Shown one piece after another: positions 3-56,607 of a DNA stretch of 64,000 bases; within the stretch, counting starts at the first letter, position 1; every line of letters starts with the position of its first letter. The stretch comes from Polaromonas sp. (GTDB lineage: Bacteria > Pseudomonadota > Gammaproteobacteria > Burkholderiales > Burkholderiaceae_C), in the NCBI GenBank assembly GCA_013297865.1, contig JAAFIP010000006.1, positions 62,001 to 126,000 on the forward strand, written 5' to 3'. Below the pieces are notes generated by a model. It had not been told where the DNA came from. It saw only the letters and a program-made list of their open reading frames with translations, and ran no database searches. The translations under genes and the position numbers were made by a program.

Positions 3-1097
3 AACCGCGTGCAGGAGCAGATGAAGGGCCTGGGCAGCAACATCATGCTGGTGTTGCCCGGGGGTGTGACCACCGGCGGCGTGCGCCTGGGCGCACAGAC
101 TGGCCAGGCGCTGACCGAAGAAGACGCGCTGGCCATTGCCAAAGACGTGCCCGAAGTGCAGATTGCCGCGCCCAGTATGCGCACTGGCGCACAGGTGGTG
201 GCGGGCAACACCAACTGGAACACCTCGGTGCTGGGCACCACCAACGACTACCTGGAAGGTCGCGAGTGGCTGCTGGTGAGTGGGCGCAATTTTGAAGCTG
301 CCGAAATGCAGGGCTCGGCCAAAGTGGCCATCATCGGTCAGACCGTAGCGCAGCAATTGTTTGGCGACGCCGACCCGCTGGACCAGGTGATCCGGGTCAA
401 AAAAATCCCGGTCACCATCATTGGCATGTTGGAGAAAAAAGGGCAAAACTCCCTGGGCCAGGACCAGGACGACACCCTGATCGTGCCCATCAGCACCTAC
501 CGCAACCGCATCCAGGGCGGCACAGGTGGCAAGCTCAAGCGTGTTGGCGTGATCAATGTGAAGGTCAAAGAAGGCCAGAGCATGAAGGCCGCCGAAGACA
601 ACATCAAAGACCTGCTGCGCCAGCGCCTGAAGGTGCAGAACGGCGCGGAAGACCCGTTCAACATCCGCAACCTGACCGAGATTTTGCAGGCGCAGGAGGC
701 CTCCAGCCGCATCATGACCTTGCTGCTGGCCGCCGTGGCAGGCATCAGCCTGATCATTGGCGGCATCGGCATCATGAACATCATGCTGGTGAGCGTGACC
801 GAGCGCACCCGCGAGATTGGCCTGCGCATGGCCGTGGGCGCGCGCGGCAAAGACATCCTCGCGCAGTTTTTGATTGAAGCTGTTACGCTCAGTTTGATCG
901 GCGGGGCCATTGGCGTGCTGATCGGCGCAGTAGCCACCTGGGCGGTGGGCCAGTTTGCGGGCTGGCAGGTCAGCATGACGGCGGCTTCCATCTTTCTGGC
1001 CACGATCTTTTCAGCCGTGGTGGGCGTATTTTTCGGGTTCTACCCCGCGCGCAGGGCGTCCAAGCTGCTGCCGATCCAGGCGCTGCGCTACGAATAG
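3..1097 (+). CDS. MacB-type ABC transporter permease, C-terminal part (5' end outside window)
   Basis: Inner-membrane permease of the MacB/FtsX type, which works with a MacA-like periplasmic adaptor and a dedicated ATPase to export peptides, macrolides or lipoproteins. The frame is open to the first base, and the first residues (NRVQEQMKGLG) lie inside the family's periplasmic MacB_PCD domain, so the true start is upstream. That domain covers about the first 230 residues. The last 120 residues hold three hydrophobic segments, with the FtsX-type stretch GIGIMNIMLVSVTERTREIG before segment two, and end in YPARRASKLLPIQALRYE, typical of MacB C termini. The ATPase is not visible. A dispersed repeat starts two bases after the stop. 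Family assignment is firm; the substrate is unknown. Confidence 0.9.
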   Translation, partial: NRVQEQMKGLGSNIMLVLPGGVTTGGVRLGAQTGQALTEEDALAIAKDVPEVQIAAPSMRTGAQVVAGNTNWNTSVLGTTNDYLEGREWLLVSGRNFEAAEMQGSAKVAIIGQTVAQQLFGDADPLDQVIRVKKIPVTIIGMLEKKGQNSLGQDQDDTLIVPISTYRNRIQGGTGGKLKRVGVINVKVKEGQSMKAAEDNIKDLLRQRLKVQNGAEDPFNIRNLTEILQAQEASSRIMTLLLAAVAGISLIIGGIGIMNIMLVSVTERTREIGLRMAVGARGKDILAQFLIEAVTLSLIGGAIGVLIGAVATWAVGQFAGWQVSMTAASIFLATIFSAVVGVFFGFYPARRASKLLPIQALRYE

Positions 1098-1098
1098 C

Positions 1099-1138
1099 AT
1101 AGCTGCTCCCGCGATATTCTATTGGGCGGATGGCCTGA
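1099..1138 (+). repeat. Dispersed repeat, copy 1
   Basis: First of eight copies of a roughly 38-bp element whose core reads AGCTGCTCCCGCGATATTCT followed by ATTGG and a GGCC-rich end. It begins just after the macB stop codon. AATAG and CTATT near the ends of the core can pair, as can the GGCCT and AGGCC ends. Most copies lie directly 3' of genes. Confidence 0.85.
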
Positions 1139-1189
1139 AAGCCCTTGAATTCTGCTGCCAATGAGGCTGCAATGCCACAATTATTGTAG

Positions 1190-3239: not shown

Positions 3240-3617
3240 TTTGGTGTCCTTTTAAGCATAAGTGAGATTCATCGATTGCTGTCACATAAAGAATTGCAGA
3301 TCACTAAAACTCTGTATTTCCTGCATGACTGATGAATTAGGCTTGAAAGTTTCGCGCCTATCTTTCAAAAAACTGCGCTGATGAATCGAATCCTCTGCAC
3401 AGGAATTTGTCATTTGATCGTTTTGCACTGTTCAATACGAGCAGCTCCTGTGCTCCGCTTGAATTCAGGTTTTTGGTCGAAATTCAAAAATAACCATAAG
3501 AGTGAAGCGGTCTTTATTCAACCCCGTCACGTTTGGCTTTCGGCAAACGACTAAGCCTGTGAGAGCAGCACATAGTGTGGTGTTCTTAACTCTTCTACCC
3601 ATTTTTAAGGAATCATC
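3240..3617. other. Intergenic region between lipoprotein and DUF4148 gene 2
   Basis: No gene is supported here. The left 270 bases hold the upstream region of the minus-strand lipoprotein and are AT-rich. From 3510 the sequence follows the leader of DUF4148 gene 1. A hairpin at 3530-3549 (CGTTTG with CAAACG) corresponds to the one at 1211-1230, although the bases inside differ between the two copies. Confidence 0.6.
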
Positions 3618-3926
3618 ATGAAATCTTCTTTTGCAACTGTTCTGGTCATCACCGCAGCTCTGAGCGCCTTTTCCACCATCGCACAAGCCGGCGACAGCGA
3701 CTTCACCGCCAACCCTCAGGTCATCAGCTCCAGCACGCTAACCCGCGACGCGGTCCGTGCTGAGTACCTCGCTGCAAAGCAAAACGGCACGCTGGCTGCC
3801 AGCAATGACCGCAACTACGCATCGCATGTGGCCGATCATTCGCAGGTTGGTAAAACCCGCACGGAAGTGATCAGCGAGCTCATGATGGCCAAGTCTTTTG
3901 TGACGGATCTTGGTCGCGCCAACTAA
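3618..3926 (+). CDS. DUF4148 domain-containing exported protein (copy 2)
   Basis: Paralogue of the gene at 1298, 102 residues, with an identical signal peptide and an almost identical first 70 residues (STLTRDAVRAEYLAAKQNGT). The C-terminal 30 residues differ (TRTEVISELMMAKSFVTDLG), but the R-x-EV-x-x-EL motif is kept. Start ATG after TTTTTAAGGAATC. Its leader is also duplicated, so the unit was copied with its control region. A hairpin lies 3' of it, followed by a sigma factor gene on the same strand. Probably a periplasmic or secreted protein of unknown role. Confidence 0.85.
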   Translation: MKSSFATVLVITAALSAFSTIAQAGDSDFTANPQVISSSTLTRDAVRAEYLAAKQNGTLAASNDRNYASHVADHSQVGKTRTEVISELMMAKSFVTDLGRAN

Positions 3927-8463: not shown

Positions 8464-8882
8464 CCATGGGCTGTGAAAAAAGCCGTATACCAGGGTGAGA
8501 AGCTTCATGCGCACAGCATAACTTAGCTCCCTCCGTATTTGCCTGCTGGAATGCTTAAGCGCCGATGTAATTGTTTGCTGGCACTGCTGCAGGTGGGCCT
8601 GGGGCATGATTTCCGCTGCTGGAGCGGTACCTAAAGCCCCTCTATTCACTATAAATTTAATAGCTGCCCCCGCGATATTCTATTGGGCTGGAGGCCTAAA
8701 CCATCTAAAAAACGGGCTTAAATCACAGGGTTTTAGGCAGTGAACTTTAAAACGCCACTCTATGCAGCCCGCCCCAGTGCTTATGCAGGTTTTGCATGAG
8801 GAGTGCTTTGTAATTTTAGGGTTTACCCTTAATCTACGGTTATTGCACCTGAGGGTGCCCACTTTTCAGAAAGAACTGCATC
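8464..8882. other. Intergenic region upstream of the TAP-like lipoprotein
   Basis: About 420 bases with no gene I can support, apart from a possible 15-codon extension of the minus-strand gene to 8508. It carries one copy of the dispersed repeat and the upstream regions of two divergent genes. I see no convincing promoter boxes. Confidence 0.5.
8660..8698 (+). repeat. Dispersed repeat, copy 2
   Basis: Reads ATAGCTGCCCCCGCGATATT then CTATTGGGCTGGAGGCCT. One base differs from the consensus in the first block. It lies in the region upstream of the minus-strand peptidase gene. Confidence 0.85.
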
Positions 8883-13572: not shown

Positions 13573-16164
13573 CTACCGATTTTCCAGCTTTTTCAGCTGG
13601 TACAGCGCATCCAACGCCTCCCTGGGGCTCAAATTGTCTGGATGGATGGCAGACAGCGCGGCGGATAGCTCGCTCGGTTGCAGCGAACTTTTATCATATT
13701 CGGCGGGGGCAGTAAACAGATCTACCTGGGCTTTGGCCGCGGTTTGCTGCGTCTCCAGTGCCTCCAGCGCCTGGCGTGCATGGTTGACCACGGCGGCTGG
13801 CACGCCTGCGAGCTTGGCCACCTGGATACCGTAGCTGCGGCTGGCGGGGCCGGGCTCGATGCTGTGCAGGAAGGCAATATCGTGGCCGCGCTCTACCGCG
13901 CTGACGTGGACGTTAACGGCGCTATGGTGTTTTTCGGGGAAACCGGTGAGCTCAAAATAATGGGTGGCAAACAGCGTGAAAGCCTGCGATTTGTGCAGGT
14001 GTGCAGCAATACCGCTGGCCAGCGCCAGGCCGTCAAAGGTGCTGGTGCCGCGGCCAATCTCGTCCATCAACACGAGAGAGTGGGGCGTGGCGCTATGCAG
14101 GATCTGCGCGGCCTCGGTCATCTCCAGCATGAAGGTGGATTGGGCGTTGGCCAGGTCGTCTGCCGCGCCAATGCGGGTGTGGATGGCGTCGATCGGCCCC
14201 AGGCGGCAGGCGCTGGCGGGCACATAGGAGCCTACTGAAGCCAGCAGCACGATGATGGCGACCTGGCGCATGTAGGTGGACTTGCCGCCCATGTTGGGGC
14301 CGGTGATGACCTGCATGCGGGTTTTGGCATGGAGCGCGGTGTCGTTGGCGATGAAGTTGCCGCTGGACAGCTCTGCCAGCCGCGCCTCCACCACCGGATG
14401 GCGACCTGCACTGATGTCGATGCAGGGTTCTTTGGCAAACACAGGCGCGCACCATTGCAGCGTGAGCGAGCGCTCGGCCAGGGCGCACAGCGCGTCCAGC
14501 GAGGCCAGGGCCTGGGCGCAGCCAGACAGCGCGGGGATAAAGCTTTGCAACTGGTCCTGCAACTGCTCGTAGAGAAACTTCTCGCGCGCCAGCGCACGGT
14601 CCTGCGCGCTCAAGGCCTTGTCTTCAAAGGCCTTGAGTTCTGGAGTGATGAAGCGCTCGGCGTTTTTCAGGGTCTGGCGGCGGCGGTAGTCTTCGGGCAC
14701 CTTGTCCAGCTGGCCTTGCGTGATCTCGATATAAAAGCCGTGCACTTTGTTGAACTGCACCCGCAGATTGGCGATGCCGGTGCGCGCCTTTTCACGGGTT
14801 TCCAGATCGAGCAAAAATGCATCGCAGGTATCACCGATATTGCGCAGTTCGTCCAGGTCGTTGTCATAGCCGTTGGCGATCACGCCACCGTCGCGTACCA
14901 GGGCAGCAGGCTCGGGCAGCAGCGCGCTGTGCAGCAGCTCAAAACAGCCTACAGGAGGCGCCAGGGCAGCAGAAATAGAAGACAAATCGGCCTCCAGGCC
15001 AATAGAATATCGCGAGAGCAGCTCACATTTTTGTAGCGTCTGCTGTAGGGCAACCAGTTCACGCGGGCGCACCTGGCGCAGCGCAATGCGCGCCGTGATG
15101 CGCTCCACATCGCTCACGCCCCTGAGCTGTTCGCGCAGCTTGTGGGCATGGCCCTCGCGCAGGCGGCCAATGGCCTGCAGGCGCTGCTGGGCTGTGCTGC
15201 GGTCGCGCTGGGGCGACAACAGCCAGCTTTTGAGCGCGCGGCTGCCCATGCCGGTCTGGCAGGTATCAAGCAACGAGAAGAGGGTGGGCGCGTCTTCGCC
15301 GCGCAAGGTCTGGGTCAGCTCCAGGTTGCGGCGGGTGGTCAGCGGCAGATCGATCAGCTCGCCATCGCGCTGCACGCGCAGGCTGCGCACATGGGGCAGT
15401 GCCTTGCCCTGGGTGTGCTCTGCATACGCCAGCAGCGCAGAGGCCGCGGCGTGGGCCTGCGTGGCCACCTCCGCGCTGAAAGCCTGCAGGCTGGCCACTT
15501 GCAGCTGCGCGCACAGCTTGGCATGGCCCAGGCCACTGTCAAACTGGAAGGCAGGGCGCACGGTCAGCGGGATGGCGGCAGCGAATTTCAGCGCCTTGAT
15601 CTGCTGCTCAAAAGCAGGTGTCACGTCGCCGCTGTAGATCAGCTCGCTGGGCGCGATGCGGGCTACCCAAGCTGCAAGCTCGTCATGTGTGCACTGGGCC
15701 AGCTGGATTTCGCTTTGCGTCACTGCCAGCCAGGCCAGGCCGAGCTGGTTGCGCGCCGCCTGGTGCACTGCCAGCAGCACCGACTCGGTTTTGTCGCTGA
15801 GCAGCTCGGTATCGGTCAAGGTGCCGGGCGTGACCACGCGCACCACTTTGCGCTCTACCGGCCCTTTGCCCACGCCGACCTCGCCCACCTGCTCGCAAAT
15901 GGCCACCGACTCGCCCAGCTTGATCAGGCGCGCCAGATAGGTCTCCAGCGAATGGAACGGCACACCTGCCATTACCACCGGCTGGCCACCAGACTGGCCG
16001 CGCTGGGTGAGGGTGATGCTCAGCAGGCGTGCGGCTTTTTCGGCGTCGGCATAGAAGACTTCGTAGAAGTCGCCCATGCGGTAGAACAGCAAGGTGCTGG
16101 GAAAATCTTTTTTGAGAGCCCAGTACTGGGCCATCATGGGCGTGTGTTCAGCTCCTTGTGCCAT
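13573..16164 (-). CDS. mutS: DNA mismatch repair protein MutS
   Basis: Mismatch-recognition ATPase of methyl-directed repair, 863 residues (E. coli MutS 853). The N-terminal domain carries the mismatch-binding F-x-E motif as [17 protein letters not shown] near residue 34. Connector and lever domains follow. The ATPase has Walker [14 protein letters not shown] near 630, Walker [17 protein letters not shown] and the dimer-contact ATHYFELT. The C-terminal tail, ending in YQLKKLENR, carries the tetramer-type extension. Residues 381-392 ([11 protein letters not shown] and flanks) are encoded by a copy of the dispersed repeat. The frame is intact throughout. Confidence 0.97.
14990..15024 (-). repeat. 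Dispersed repeat copy inside mutS
   Basis: On the minus strand this reads AGCTGCTCTCGCGATATTCT then ATTGGCCTGGAGGC, one base off the consensus. It is in frame with mutS and encodes [12 protein letters not shown]. It is the only coding copy of the eight. In the same frame the consensus would begin with TAG; here that codon is GAG. Confidence 0.85.
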
Positions 16165-17441: not shown

Positions 17442-18704
17442 ATGATGCTTGTATCAAAAGGAACGATTTTGAATCGGTTGTTAAAAACTGTCGCTAGATG
17501 TGTAGGTGTGCTGGGTCTTGGCATTGCGCTGAGCACGGCAGCCGTGTCTGCCGCACAAGCCAAAAGCCCCGCAAAAAAATCTGCCGCAGTCAAAGTAGCG
17601 GCGTCCAAATCATCTGCCAAAGCTTCCACCAAATCCTCCAACAAGGTGTCTGCCAAGGCAGGCAAAAAATCTCTCATCGCTGCCAAGCCAGCGCGCGCAG
17701 GCAAGCATGCGGTAGCTGCCAAGCGCGGCAGCGTGGTGCGCGTGTCTGCCAAAGGCAGCCGCGCGGCGCCCGCAGCCAAAATGCAGCGCGTAGTTGTCAA
17801 AGGCAAAAACGGCAAACGTATCGTGCGCATGATGCCGGTGCGCACCGTGGCCTATGTGCCACCTGCGCCACCCAAGCTGTCCTATGGCCAACTTGCCGGC
17901 CTGCATGGCATGCAGGATGCGCTGGATCTGAAGTCCAGCGTGGCACTGGTGATCGACCAGGACACCCGTGAGGTGCTGTTCAGCAAAAACGATTCAGCCA
18001 TACTGCCCATCGCCTCGCTCACCAAGTTGATGACGGGCGTGATCGTGAGCGAAGCGCGCCTGGATATGAACGAGCTGATCACCATCACACAAGATGATGT
18101 GGACACCGAAAAAGGCAGCCGCTCGCGCCTGAAAGTGGGCACACAGCTCACCCGTGCAGACCTGATGCTGTTGGCGCTGATGAGCAGCGAAAACCGCGCC
18201 GCCCACGCACTGGGCCGCACTTACCCTGGCGGCCTGGACCGCTTTGTGCAGCACATGAATGTCAAGGCCGCGCAGCTCAACATGCGCGATACCCGCTATG
18301 TTGAGCCTACCGGCCTATCCAGCCGCAACCAGAGCAGTGCACAAGACCTGGCCACCCTGGTGTCCTACTCGGTCAACAACCCGCAACTGCGCGAGCTCTC
18401 CACCGCCCCCGAGCACCAGTTTGCCGTGGGCGAGCGCACGCTGAACTATGTCAACACCAACCGCCTGACACGCAACCCCGAGTGGGAAATCGGCCTGCAG
18501 AAAACCGGCTATATCTCTGAAGCCGGCCAGTGCCTGGTAATGCAGGCCAAGATCGCCGGCCGCAAGCTGATCATGGTCTTCCTAGACTCCGCAGGCAAGC
18601 TCAGCCGCCTGGGCGACGCCGAGCGCGTGCGCAAATGGATGGAAGCCAACCGCGTGATGGGTGTCAACCCTGTGAGCGCTGCTGGCAAGCCTTCGCAAGG
18701 CTAG
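17442..18704 (+). CDS. Serine-type D-Ala-D-Ala carboxypeptidase/endopeptidase (PbpG/DacA-like)
   Basis: Periplasmic penicillin-binding protein of 420 residues that trims peptidoglycan stem peptides or cross-links (class C, S11 peptidases). An N-terminal signal segment ends near AQA at about residue 39. Then comes a 75-residue Lys/Ala/Ser-rich stretch (KKSAAVKVAASKSSAKAS and similar) before the catalytic domain. Active-site motifs are ASLTK near 187, SSEN near 248 and KTG in LQKTGYIS near 353. The start ATG at 17442 has GGGAG five bases upstream. The last 290 bases are repeated at 21744-22033, bracketing a 3-kb segment. The C terminus lacks a clear membrane anchor. Confidence 0.9.
   Translation: MMLVSKGTILNRLLKTVARCVGVLGLGIALSTAAVSAAQAKSPAKKSAAVKVAASKSSAKASTKSSNKVSAKAGKKSLIAAKPARAGKHAVAAKRGSVVRVSAKGSRAAPAAKMQRVVVKGKNGKRIVRMMPVRTVAYVPPAPPKLSYGQLAGLHGMQDALDLKSSVALVIDQDTREVLFSKNDSAILPIASLTKLMTGVIVSEARLDMNELITITQDDVDTEKGSRSRLKVGTQLTRADLMLLALMSSENRAAHALGRTYPGGLDRFVQHMNVKAAQLNMRDTRYVEPTGLSSRNQSSAQDLATLVSYSVNNPQLRELSTAPEHQFAVGERTLNYVNTNRLTRNPEWEIGLQKTGYISEAGQCLVMQAKIAGRKLIMVFLDSAGKLSRLGDAERVRKWMEANRVMGVNPVSAAGKPSQG
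18415..18704 (+). repeat. Left direct repeat (3' end of carboxypeptidase gene)
   Basis: This segment matches 21744-22033 over its full length with about 15 differences. Four changes cluster near the left edge (GTGGG versus ACCAG), with one more nearby. All later coding differences that I can align are third-position and synonymous. Similarity continues about 25 bases past the stop into a terminator-like hairpin. Confidence 0.9.
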
Positions 18705-18711
18705 GGAGCAC

Positions 18712-21570: not shown

Positions 21571-21743
21571 CTTGATCTTCATATTTGCTGTAGGTAACGA
21601 CTGATATGGATATTTCTCGAAAATCAATTGCACGTGCAAAAAATGATTGACGGTAAAGCTGAAGGTATGAATAGCCTTTAACGATAAGTACGATCTTCCA
21701 ATTGAGCACTGTGCAGTACGAAGAAATCTAACTTTTAACGAAT

Positions 21744-22033
21744 ACCAGTTTGCCACCAGCGAGTGCACGCTGAACTACGTCAACACCAACCGCCTGACAC
21801 GCAACCCCGAGTGGGAAATCGGCCTGCAAAAAACAGGCTACATCTCCGAAGCCGGCCAGTGCCTGGTAATGCAGGCCAAGATCGCCGGACGCAAGCTGAT
21901 CATGGTCTTCCTCGACTCCGCAGGCAAGCTCAGCCGCCTGGGCGACGCAGAGCGCGTACGCAAATGGATGGAAGCCAACCGCGTGATGGGTGTCAACCCT
22001 GTGAGCGCTGCTGGCAAGCCTTCGCAAGGCTGA
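21744..22033 (+). pseudogene. Truncated second copy of the carboxypeptidase 3' end
   Basis: The in-frame reading starts QFATSECTLNYVNTNRLTRN and follows the parent protein to GKPSQG and a TGA stop. Only the last 96 codons are present, without start or catalytic Ser and Lys, so it cannot make a working protein. A frame-shifted ORF here is spurious. The copy differs from 18415-18704 almost only at synonymous sites. That suggests a diverged allele brought in by recombination, not a recent local copy. Confidence 0.88.
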
Positions 22034-22041
22034 TGCGCACG

Positions 22042-35997: not shown

Positions 35998-36011
35998 GTG
36001 CTATTAATACA

Positions 36012-36050
36012 ATAGCTGCTCCCGCGATATTCTATTGGCCTGGCGGCCTG
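36012..36050 (+). repeat. Dispersed repeat, copy 4
   Basis: A consensus copy (ATAGCTGCTCCCGCGATATT, then CTATTGGCCTGGCGGCCTG) 14 bases after the polymerase stop. Its GGCC ends can pair. Confidence 0.85.
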
Positions 36051-36099
36051 TTTAGTATATAAATCTGCACTTCAAGAGGTGTGCAGAGGGGCGGGGCGC

Positions 36100-36321: not shown

Positions 36322-36382
36322 GGCAGAGGCCTTTTGGGGTGAATACACATTCATGGTCTTATTCTACCAAAGCTATCATAAA

Positions 36383-36420
36383 AGTAGCTGCTCCCGCGAT
36401 ATTCCATTGGGCTGGCAGCT
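36383..36420 (+). repeat. Dispersed repeat, copy 5
   Basis: Reads GTAGCTGCTCCCGCGATATT then CCATTGGGCTGGCAGCT, with several changes from the consensus. Lies between the small lipoprotein gene and the MetE-like gene. Confidence 0.8.
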
Positions 36421-36446
36421 ATTTTCCTTACAAATTGCAGCAGGGT

Positions 36447-50113: not shown

Positions 50114-50133
50114 ATGTATTTGCTATACATTAA

Positions 50134-50172
50134 ATAGCTGCTCCCGCGATATTCTATTGGCCTGGAGGGCTA
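50134..50172 (+). repeat. Dispersed repeat, copy 6
   Basis: A consensus copy (ATAGCTGCTCCCGCGATATT, then CTATTGGCCTGGAGGGCTA) 20 bases after the icd stop, between it and a convergent LysR gene. The paired ends would give a bidirectional stem. Confidence 0.85.
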
Positions 50173-50207
50173 AAGCACCCTCAACTGAACATCGCACAGC
50201 GCTATTG

Positions 50208-52666: not shown

Positions 52667-52701
52667 GGTAACCGGTATTCATCCAAAATGCTATTTATTT
52701 A

Positions 52702-52740
52702 ATAGCTGCCCCTGCGATATTTTATTGGCTTGCAGGCTGT
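52702..52740 (+). repeat. Dispersed repeat, copy 7
   Basis: A diverged copy reading ATAGCTGCCCCTGCGATATT then TTATTGGCTTGCAGGCTGT. It is among the more changed copies and lies upstream of the methyltransferase gene, between divergent genes. Confidence 0.8.
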
Positions 52741-52929
52741 TTTGGTATGTAGAAATGCATGGTGATGCGTCCCGGGCAGCGCAACAGGCAGGTCGCTGCG
52801 CCGCAGTTACGCAACTGTTTGGTTTTTGATCAGTGTTGCTAATAAGAAGGTTTCTGTAAATTTTTCCCTGCAAAAAGAGAGGTCTTATTACAATTTCAAT
52901 AACACCACCTTGTGCCTTACCAACTATTT

Positions 52930-55008: not shown

Positions 55009-55647
55009 ATGCCCAACCCCTTGCAGACAGCGCGCTATCCACGCCGGGCAGTGACTGCCGCCTTGGTCGCCTGGCCTACGCTATGGCTAGGCCCGCGCGC
55101 CCAGCCCGCCCAGCCCCGGCGTGCTACCCCCAGCCAGACCGAAGGGCCTTTCTATCCTGTGGCGCTGCCGGCAGACAGTGATTTTGATTTGCTGCGCAAC
55201 GGCAGCCTGTCCTACAGCAAAGGCCAGGCCTGCTGGGTCGAAGGCGCGGTGACCGATCTGCAGGGCAAGCCTGTGGCAGGTGCGCAGGTGGAAATCTGGC
55301 AATGCGATGAAGCGGGCCACTACCATCATCCTGGCGACGGCAGCCGTGCAGACAAGGCTTTTCAGGGCTTTGGCAAGGTGGTGGTTTCAGCCGATGGGCG
55401 CTACCGTTTTCGCACCATACGCCCTGTGGCCTACAGTGGCCGAACACCCCACATCCACGTCAAAGTCAGGCTGGGCTCACGCGAGCTTTTGACCACGCAG
55501 CTGTATGTGCAGGGCGATCCGCACAACGCGCGGGATTTTCTGTGGCGCAATCTGCGCGATGAAGCTGATCGCGCCGCCCTTACCGCAGCGTTCACAGCCA
55601 GCGCCGATGGCCTGAAAGCACAATTTCCTATTGTGGTAGAGATATAA
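55009..55647 (+). CDS. Exported intradiol ring-cleavage dioxygenase-like protein
   Basis: Protein of 212 residues of the intradiol dioxygenase superfamily (protocatechuate 3,4-dioxygenase fold). SQTEGPFYPVALPADSDFDL, VEIWQCDEAGHYHHPGDG and FRTIRPVAYSGRTPHIHVKV supply the Tyr-Tyr-His-His iron ligand set. Its N terminus (RYPRRAVTAALVAWPTLWLG) is a signal sequence, possibly Tat-like, so it would act outside the cytoplasm, unlike normal PcaGH. The start at 55009 has CCAGGAGAC upstream. It lies just before the 4,5-cleavage regulator and operon, which use a different (extradiol) chemistry. Substrate unknown. Confidence 0.8.
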   Translation: MPNPLQTARYPRRAVTAALVAWPTLWLGPRAQPAQPRRATPSQTEGPFYPVALPADSDFDLLRNGSLSYSKGQACWVEGAVTDLQGKPVAGAQVEIWQCDEAGHYHHPGDGSRADKAFQGFGKVVVSADGRYRFRTIRPVAYSGRTPHIHVKVRLGSRELLTTQLYVQGDPHNARDFLWRNLRDEADRAALTAAFTASADGLKAQFPIVVEI

Positions 55648-55652
55648 ATACC

Positions 55653-55688
55653 GCTGCAGGCCAATAGAATATCGCGGGAGCAGCTATT
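55653..55688 (-). repeat. Dispersed repeat, copy 8 (reverse orientation)
   Basis: Read on the minus strand it is AATAGCTGCTCCCGCGATAT then TCTATTGGCCTGCAGC. It lies between the dioxygenase stop and the convergent LysR stop. Short, but a clear match. Confidence 0.85.
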
Positions 55689-55701
55689 AAAAACAGAGCA
55701 A

Positions 55702-56607
55702 TCAGTGTTTGCGATGGGAGGCGAAATACTTGTTCACCATCTCGCTGATCAGCTCTTGCATGGCCCGTTGCGTGAGCGTGCCGGGCCGCTGCGCGCTGGT
55801 GGCCATGGCGATGCGGCTGCGCAGGCTGCTGATGGGGCGCATGGCGTAATGCTCGGGGTGCGCTGCAGTGCGCACGGCGTTGGCAGACAGCACGGCGGAG
55901 CCTGCATTGTCTGCCACCAGATCCAAAATGGCGGCCACACCATCGATTTCCAGCACCACATTGGGCCGTTTGCCCACCGCGTTGAGCTCGGCTTCCACCA
56001 GCGCACGCAGGGCGTTGGGCCGCGTGGCAATGATCAGCGGCACCGAGGCCAGCTCGCGCAGGCTGATGCTCTGCCCGGCCTTGCTGCGGTGCGTGTCGTG
56101 CTGCACCAGCATCAGGTCCTCTTCGACCAGCTCGGTCAGTTCAACATCGGCTGAGGGCAGGGGGTTATAGAGCAGGGCGATATCCAGGCGGCCAATGGTT
56201 AGCGACTCCTGCATGGCCACTGACAGCCCCTCGCTGATGGACAGTGTGGCTTCGGGCATGCGCTCTTTGAAAGCGCGGATCAGCGGTACGGTCAGCACTT
56301 TGGCCACGCTGGTGGGCATGCCCACGGCCACACGCCCCGCGAGGCCCCCACGCACACGGCCCAGGTCTTCCCGCGCCCGTTGCACCTGGTGCAAAATACC
56401 TCTACCGTGCTCTAGCAACATCTTGCCCGCTTCGGTAGGTGTGGCGCCGCGGCCATTGCGCACCAAGAGGTTTTGCCGCAGCTCCACCTCCAGCAGGCGC
56501 ACCTGACGGCTCAGTGCTGGCTGCGCAATATTGAGCGCCACCGACGCGCGCGTGAAGCTGCCCAATTCAGCGACACGCACAAAGTATTCAATCTGTTTGA
56601 GGTCCAT
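55702..56607 (-). CDS. LysR regulator of the protocatechuate 4,5-cleavage operon (PmdR/LigR-like)
   Basis: Regulator of 301 residues. N-terminal MDLKQIEYFVRVAELGSFTR and ASVALNIAQPALSRQVRLLE give the helix-turn-helix. The effector domain follows (DIALLYNPLPSADVELTELV). It starts 132 bases from galD and runs the other way, the standard layout for LysR control of a pathway operon, with a palindrome CTCATATGAG beside its start. By position it should activate the lig operon in response to protocatechuate, vanillate or a pathway intermediate. The inducer cannot be read here. Confidence 0.9.
   Translation of the reverse strand: MDLKQIEYFVRVAELGSFTRASVALNIAQPALSRQVRLLEVELRQNLLVRNGRGATPTEAGKMLLEHGRGILHQVQRAREDLGRVRGGLAGRVAVGMPTSVAKVLTVPLIRAFKERMPEATLSISEGLSVAMQESLTIGRLDIALLYNPLPSADVELTELVEEDLMLVQHDTHRSKAGQSISLRELASVPLIIATRPNALRALVEAELNAVGKRPNVVLEIDGVAAILDLVADNAGSAVLSANAVRTAAHPEHYAMRPISSLRSRIAMATSAQRPGTLTQRAMQELISEMVNKYFASHRKH

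Follow-up and report, generated by a model that had tools for sequence, protein, structure and literature searches.

A dispersed DNA motif with genus-specific centres is read in frame within mutS of Polaromonas sp. and may be a driven recognition sequence in Comamonadaceae

The window analysed here is a stretch of 64,000 nucleotides from Polaromonas sp., and it contains a mutS gene on its minus strand. The coding sequence (13573..16164) is an open frame for 863 aa that aligns to a solved MutS, and its product shares 70-78% identity with the 80 nearest records retrieved. Inside this gene, on the same strand (14974..15039), lies one member of a dispersed repeat, coding there for 22 residues (376-397); this copy was delimited by nhmmer (14976-15039, E 3.4e-16) and by a codon table of 81 mutS sequences. 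As seen in that table, the left arm of the copy contains CTA CAA AAA (15028..15036, minus strand), which reads Leu-Gln-Lys and combines a rare Leu codon with an A-tract. The right-arm A-tract is GATTTG (14983..14988, minus strand), where the family model has the A/T-only columns 55-56. The segment of 12 residues between them (14989..15024, minus strand; residues 381-392) contains the genus-specific centre, as judged from its centre score, which was 39.9 with the matrix of its own genome and at most 6.4 with matrices from five other genera. The earlier note had taken these 12 residues for a repeat copy read in frame within MutS, and the profile model shows the copy to be real (E 3e-16). It had also remarked that GAG stands here where the consensus would place a stop. 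In the mutS of the window, GAG is the in-frame codon preceding CTG CTC; the corresponding codon begins with T in 92% of the 38 aligned copies and continues with A and G in all of them, so that most copies have TAG, as the note had stated.

Alignment of the 38 copies gave a full unit of about 66 bp, not the 38 bp assigned to the repeat before, and a motif model of 69 columns was built from them. The unit consists of a left arm (GCTAY, an A-tract and ATAGCTGCT), a centre (CCCGCGATATTCTATTGG) and a right arm (GGSCTGGAGGCC, an A-tract and AAAA). Eight copies were found by the model in the window: the one in mutS and seven others, all seven of which had been described as intergenic. This was correct for five, all on the plus strand: 8646..8710 (E 1e-18), 35998..36063 (E 6.5e-19), 36371..36434 (E 1.6e-15), 50119..50183 (E 1.6e-18) and 52687..52748 (E 2.2e-12), the last with a diverged centre. 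The other two overlap predicted gene ends. The copy at 1086..1149 (plus strand, E 1.7e-15) runs over the last 12 nt of the predicted gene before it, and the one at 55645..55702 (minus strand, E 6.8e-15) lies between two predicted genes with overlaps of 3 nt and 1 nt. The description fails genome-wide, since 17 of the 70 copies found at E <=1e-4 in 464 kb (the window plus 400 kb) lie wholly within genes, as defined by codon-usage gene prediction in a sequence that is about 85% coding; another 40 are intergenic and 13 are at gene edges. In the reversed 464-kb sequence the model gave a single match (E 8.4), and a reversed-sequence control of genome G035 gave 0 hits. In the whole 3.99-Mb genome, the 16-nt core with at most one mismatch occurred 451 times (221 and 230 on the two strands), and a control pattern occurred 0 times.

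An Rfam scan of the window yielded nothing at gathering score, and a known RNA family was rejected on this basis. Plasmids as vehicles of the repeat were likewise rejected, the window copy at 8640-8714 having no match among 72,556 plasmid records. A 41-nt core of the Acidovorax type matched 10 plasmid records. One of three antisense translations of an Acidovorax-type motif (L366:1090-1158), ASACPASASSYQ, gave a weak Pfam match to DUF1010 (E 0.0013; 19.5 bits, below the cut-off of 25), and a plasmid protein annotated as DUF1010 (L391:1331-1648) reads FLASSAYAASASSYRS. DUF1010 may in part be translated motif. The window also holds duplications of other kinds: two 300-nt stretches at 18410-18709 and 21739-22038 are 93% identical, the first lying mostly within an open frame that presumably resembles a D-alanyl-D-alanine endopeptidase-type gene, and two adjacent duplicated stretches at 1190-1500 and 3509-3820, about 2320 apart, have identities of 87% and 91%.

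Apart from the window's mutS, the motif model found the mutS site, which many genera have in common, in 31 of the 80 titled mutS loci. The Leu codon of TLQK was CTA in 30/32 carriers and in 11/49 non-carriers, a contrast that is partly built in because carriers were defined by their motif score. No such bias enters when the remainder of the gene serves as reference: of all Leu codons in carrier mutS, 3.2% are CTA. A rare CTA under an unchanged Leu suggests that the DNA was fitted to the motif while the residue was kept. Next, the load of the motif in each genome was compared with the state of its mutS site. Copies were counted in 60 genomes with a sequence-only model, under stricter filters and with at most 84 scored in each. 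Among 36 genomes of the family, which the 80 nearest titled records indicate to be Comamonadaceae, 16 had at least 10 copies, four had 1-2 and 16 had none; the 24 genomes of other families gave a single match, in one genome. For the 30 Comamonadaceae genomes with a mutS sequence, a threshold of 8 bits was reached at the site in 13 of the 15 whose load was 10 or higher and in 0 of the 15 with a lower load (Fisher 1.8e-6, which ignores kinship, shared ancestry being uncorrected). At 12 and 15 bits, the site was found in 11/15 and 9/15 motif-rich genomes and in none of the others. CTA was present at the site in 14/15 motif-rich genomes and in 1/15 other Comamonadaceae genomes.

The block of MutS that spans the site was examined in 81 aligned MutS. 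Every one of the 32 carriers had 66 aa there, and so had 29 of the 49 non-carriers; in the remaining 20 the block exceeded 66 aa. In 18 genomes from other families of the order, the block was 65-74 aa (67 aa in 12 and at least 66 aa in 16), and it was 67 and 73 aa in two distant Comamonadaceae genera. The solved MutS 5x9w, which we take to be that of Neisseria, aligned over the site with a one-residue gap. The earlier note had judged the segment to be about two residues longer than in other MutS and had proposed that the repeat was inserted and then tolerated or domesticated. The excess length is not borne out by these blocks, and since they are equally long in carriers and many non-carriers, an insertion into mutS was rejected. 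What survives is tolerance: MutS does contain the translation of a true copy of the dispersed repeat. Its confinement to genomes that have the repeat also stands, as the 13/15 against 0/15 indicates, and no insertion was seen in the alignment of relatives. The GAG codon is not a repaired stop of the window's genome, because Glu stands at this position in 31/32 carriers. G031, which was counted among the site carriers in the genome-load test, apparently has the longer segment of L099.

Some residues of the segment occur in MutS that lack the repeat, a finding that the note had regarded as telling against its view. ELL and GLEA accompany a different centre in TELLAPVLHGLEAYLTQI (L052), ELL is found with GLE in a below-threshold MutS (TELLAPVLQGLEVYLTTL, L043), and ELL and GLE(A) were seen in non-carriers such as L043 and L037. 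These non-carriers may be former carriers of the motif. TLQK is encoded with motif-free codons in G022, a genome where the model search found no motif copy. In the explanation favoured below, the motif was overlaid on pre-existing mutS codons by substitution, without added length.

Two further observations were made on mutS. The MutS of Ramlibacter albus (L058) has RHSREGGNPKLPDALDPRLRGDD at the corresponding place, about 18 residues beyond the MutS of the window, and this segment is presumably a different in-frame repeat. A second copy of the family motif was found near the 3′ end of mutS (about nt 2450-2480) in L039, L044, L070, L074, L076, L081 and L101, and weakly in L034. Several of the loci with this second copy are Rhodoferax records, and the window's mutS has one copy by the model.

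Copies in other genes gave a mixed picture. The 31 in-gene copies gathered, which include further loci picked in part because they resemble the mutS copy, occupy five of the six frames and lie on either strand; we take their host genes to include trmJ, dapF, kdtA, murE, purL, rlmE, hscB, moeA, uvrC, rarA and ligA. Lengths were compared over the repeat columns only, against orthologs from the motif-poor genomes G018 and G022, and p450 could not be judged. As in mutS, the difference was at most one residue in hscB (G018 only), rarA, ligA and purL. The proteins were 3-9 residues longer than their motif-poor orthologs for murE, dapF and kdtA, and 11-22 residues longer for trmJ, uvrC, moeA (G018 only) and rlmE. 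About 30 additional residues in rlmE were missing in 8/8 orthologs, and about 27 in moeA were missing in G002 and G027. Rickettsia palindromic elements (RPE) are described as inserts in proteins, and their mark, an in-frame insertion missing in orthologs, was found for rlmE and not for mutS. Given these mixed lengths, insertion may have contributed at certain sites.

The centre of the motif differs between genera. Motif tiles from five other genera had conserved arms in common and centres specific to each genus. With the family model at E <=0.05, the number of copies per Mb was 162 for the window's genome, 250 for G035, 200 for G010, 62 for G002, 130 for G023 and 83 for G014. A palindromic centre, GCGCTT..AAGCGC, was found in 18/160 Comamonadaceae genomes and the control in 0. 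For 12 genes with a copy in the window's genome, among them mutS, kdtA, purL, murE and trmJ, 38 orthologs from the five genera have a copy at the same site. These copies were scored with matrices made from unselected copies (70, 25, 16, 15, 18 and 20). The matrix of the own genome scored best for 40/50 copies, and for 29/38 when the window's genome was left out, in a gene set that is non-random (the window's genome has a copy in each) and leaves out genera without a detectable copy as well as the mutS copy of G027, for which there is no matrix. Permutation of labels within genes never did as well (0/20,000). When the G002 rarA copy was restored and a larger pseudocount was used, the own matrix was best for 41/51 and 30/39, again with 0/20,000 permutations as good. 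For mutS, it ranked first in four genomes (the window's, G000, together with G010, G023 and G035); in G002 it came third, and in G014 fifth. Four of the 10 failures among the 50 copies were in ligA, which fits in two of six genomes; in the window's genome, the model mis-cut the copy in ligA, which ranks sixth and was scored as a miss. As far as sequence comparison goes, the motif is common to many related genera, which have tens to hundreds of copies and each its own version of the centre, or dialect. Centres differ elsewhere in the family, and in four of six genera mutS agrees best with its own; one mutS is therefore not the source of all copies, and derivation of the repeat from mutS was rejected.

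The arms have columns nearly confined to A and T. In six genomes, 838/845 letters in columns 11-13 and 55-56 were A or T, and both were common. A TpA step occurred in 15/164 left A/T-only tracts, compared to 45.7 expected from shuffling within columns, and in 7/135 right tracts, compared to 67.2 expected. The alignment model favours A/T at the tract columns, and this bias leaves the TpA deficit unexplained. Columns of A or T that avoid TpA are what is expected of A-tracts recognised by shape. Random decay of a copied sequence would bring in G and C too, so plain copying hardly fits them.

Stability and placement of the copies were also considered. Two congeneric genomes, G004 and G165, were compared, and the orthologous place was found for 17/20 G004 copies; the motif was present in 15 of the 17. 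The two G165 places without it showed no clean 66-bp gap, and their flanks aligned poorly (60% and 70%), as did the flanks of about four of the 15 shared sites. Several copies had diverged beyond their flanks (for example, 45/69 letters against 82%) with the motif positions kept. Recent mobility was rejected because none of the 17 places compared, in what is a small test of two genomes, proved to be a clean empty site. Outside genes, 37 copies were in unidirectional, 12 in convergent and 3 in divergent gaps, where the gaps measuring 80 bp or more number 118, 20 and 42, respectively, and 27 of the 37 unidirectional copies were within 40 bp of the 3′ end of the upstream gene or overlapped it. 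This placement resembles that of REPs, just 3′ of genes and with divergent gaps avoided. The folding signal was modest to weak, with mean z of -1.3 to -2.1 (at most 15 copies per genome). For a REP, a RAYT (Y1) transposase gene would be expected near the copies; a single Y1_Tnp gene (PF01797) was found in the window's genome (C12:185224-185919, L345), behind a frame that is presumably ruvC-like. The nearest good motif copy lies 629 bp before this gene and the next more than 5 kb after it.

The explanation we favour, with a confidence of about one half, is that the mutS site is one of many in a DNA recognition motif that has genus dialects and is spread by drive. A protein would recognise the motif, and the motif would be maintained as DNA, so that synonymous codons, A-tracts and centre track it and the protein retains what it needs. 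An uptake-type mechanism is thought likeliest for the drive, by analogy with uptake sequences: DNA that matches well would be taken in preferentially and recombined, and better-matching alleles would spread where protein and regulation permit. If the receptor changed, a genus would then switch to another dialect at its sites. Uptake sequences are marked by an origin in place, AT-tracts, dialects and a tolerated presence within coding sequence, and these traits therefore favour a driven recognition motif. The occurrence of one site in many genera, its dependence on genome load and the persistence of copies between two congeners also speak for it. Several findings point the other way. Next to known uptake sequences, the motif is both long, with 49-72 bits over 69 columns per genome, and sparse, with 62-250 copies per Mb. 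The longer segments in rlmE, moeA, uvrC and trmJ fit insertion, and the 3′ placement is that of REPs. Also, the own centre fails for 10/50 copies, and the mutS of G002 and G014 prefer the matrices of other genera.

A further proposal, which we make tentatively and with clearly less confidence, is that Comamonadaceae are a third family with a putative uptake (self-recognition) signal, in genus dialects, one receptor setting many protein segments. If true, a dialect switch would change hundreds of sites together, codons of mutS, uvrC, rarA, kdtA and purL among them, and short segments in dozens of unrelated proteins would be dictated by the specificity of a single DNA receptor. Irrespective of uptake, the findings show a process at the level of DNA that moulds the codons of housekeeping proteins, and some of their residues, in concert throughout a genome. 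Caution is warranted, as such segments may be misread as inserted domains or adaptive protein change.

The main rival of a driven motif is a mobile repeat like REPs or RPEs that inserts in intergenic DNA and in genes, also in frame, and whose copies are homogenised by gene conversion or re-invasion. The 451 near-identical core copies, the five reading frames of the in-gene copies and the additional residues of rlmE and moeA would all be expected from it. We consider it somewhat unlikely, since mutS, hscB, rarA, ligA and purL are no longer than in motif-poor genomes, the extra length elsewhere is variable and not a constant 22 aa, the 17 congeneric comparisons lack a clean empty site and the arms have A/T-degenerate columns. 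To our knowledge, gene conversion among such short and differing repeats is also improbable. In its favour, REPs and RPEs have been published within repair genes, and in two Xanthomonas distinct REPs occupy roughly one position in recB (PMC3733652). Another possible explanation does without drive: ordinary selection would maintain a binding site or an RNA signal that is recognised in a genus-specific way and serves, for instance, to organise the chromosome, end transcription or process mRNA. REP-like placement, A-tracts, the palindromic centre of some genera and the modest folding signal are consistent with this. It is a less probable explanation still, because 17/70 copies are found within genes, in both orientations and several frames, a setting in which a transcription stop would do harm, and because altered residues in housekeeping proteins would be costly for a dispersed site. 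Chance resemblance, or mutS as the source of the repeat, is very improbable: TLQK and, in some, ELL and GLE do occur in motif-free MutS, but an E of 3e-16 contradicts chance, mutS has its own centre in four of six genera and the site depends on genome load.

No recognised description of such a motif in Comamonadaceae was found in the open-access literature, subscription papers being mostly outside that search. Among known repeats, RPEs resemble the motif as in-frame segments within unrelated proteins; they are named in PMC3733652. RPEs are described as protein inserts, whereas mutS and four other genes have no extra length here. BREs are found in Comamonadaceae (Polaromonas, Delftia and Acidovorax) with some copies in coding sequence, but they are described in excerpts of PMC3110155 as about 90 bp long, with 69% GC in Bordetella and at most 29 copies, unlike a motif of about 66 bp with A/T-only columns. 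Overlap with BREs is unlikely, the two being set apart by description and not by letters. REPs of the GTAG and CGTC families are likewise dispersed, partly palindromic (here in some genera), mostly 3′ of genes and in some cases within repair genes. In contrast to the 69-column consensus, which has no such end, they are 20-40 bp with a GTAG or CGTC end tag, and the main text of PMC3733652 makes no mention of Acidovorax, Delftia, Comamonas or Polaromonas.

The uptake sequences of Pasteurellaceae (USS) and Neisseriaceae (DUS) are like the present motif in having many dispersed copies within and outside genes, lineage dialects, a core with AT-tracts and an avoidance of constrained sequence. Protein alignments show few gaps at USS, whose origin was attributed to substitution and not to insertion (PMC1626085); mutS and four other genes here likewise have no extra length. 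AT-tracts are reported for USS (PMC7811141) and variation by lineage for DUS (PMC3630211). The differences are in size and number: USS and DUS have a 9-12-bp core with flanks, compared to about 66 bp and some sites with extra length for the present motif, and the H. influenzae genome has 2,206 USS, compared to 62-250 copies per Mb in a different family. The uptake-sequence trait is reported for two families (PMC7811141). If the present motif is an uptake signal, the trait would extend to a large environmental group and provide natural dialect pairs for studying the evolution of specificity and drive.
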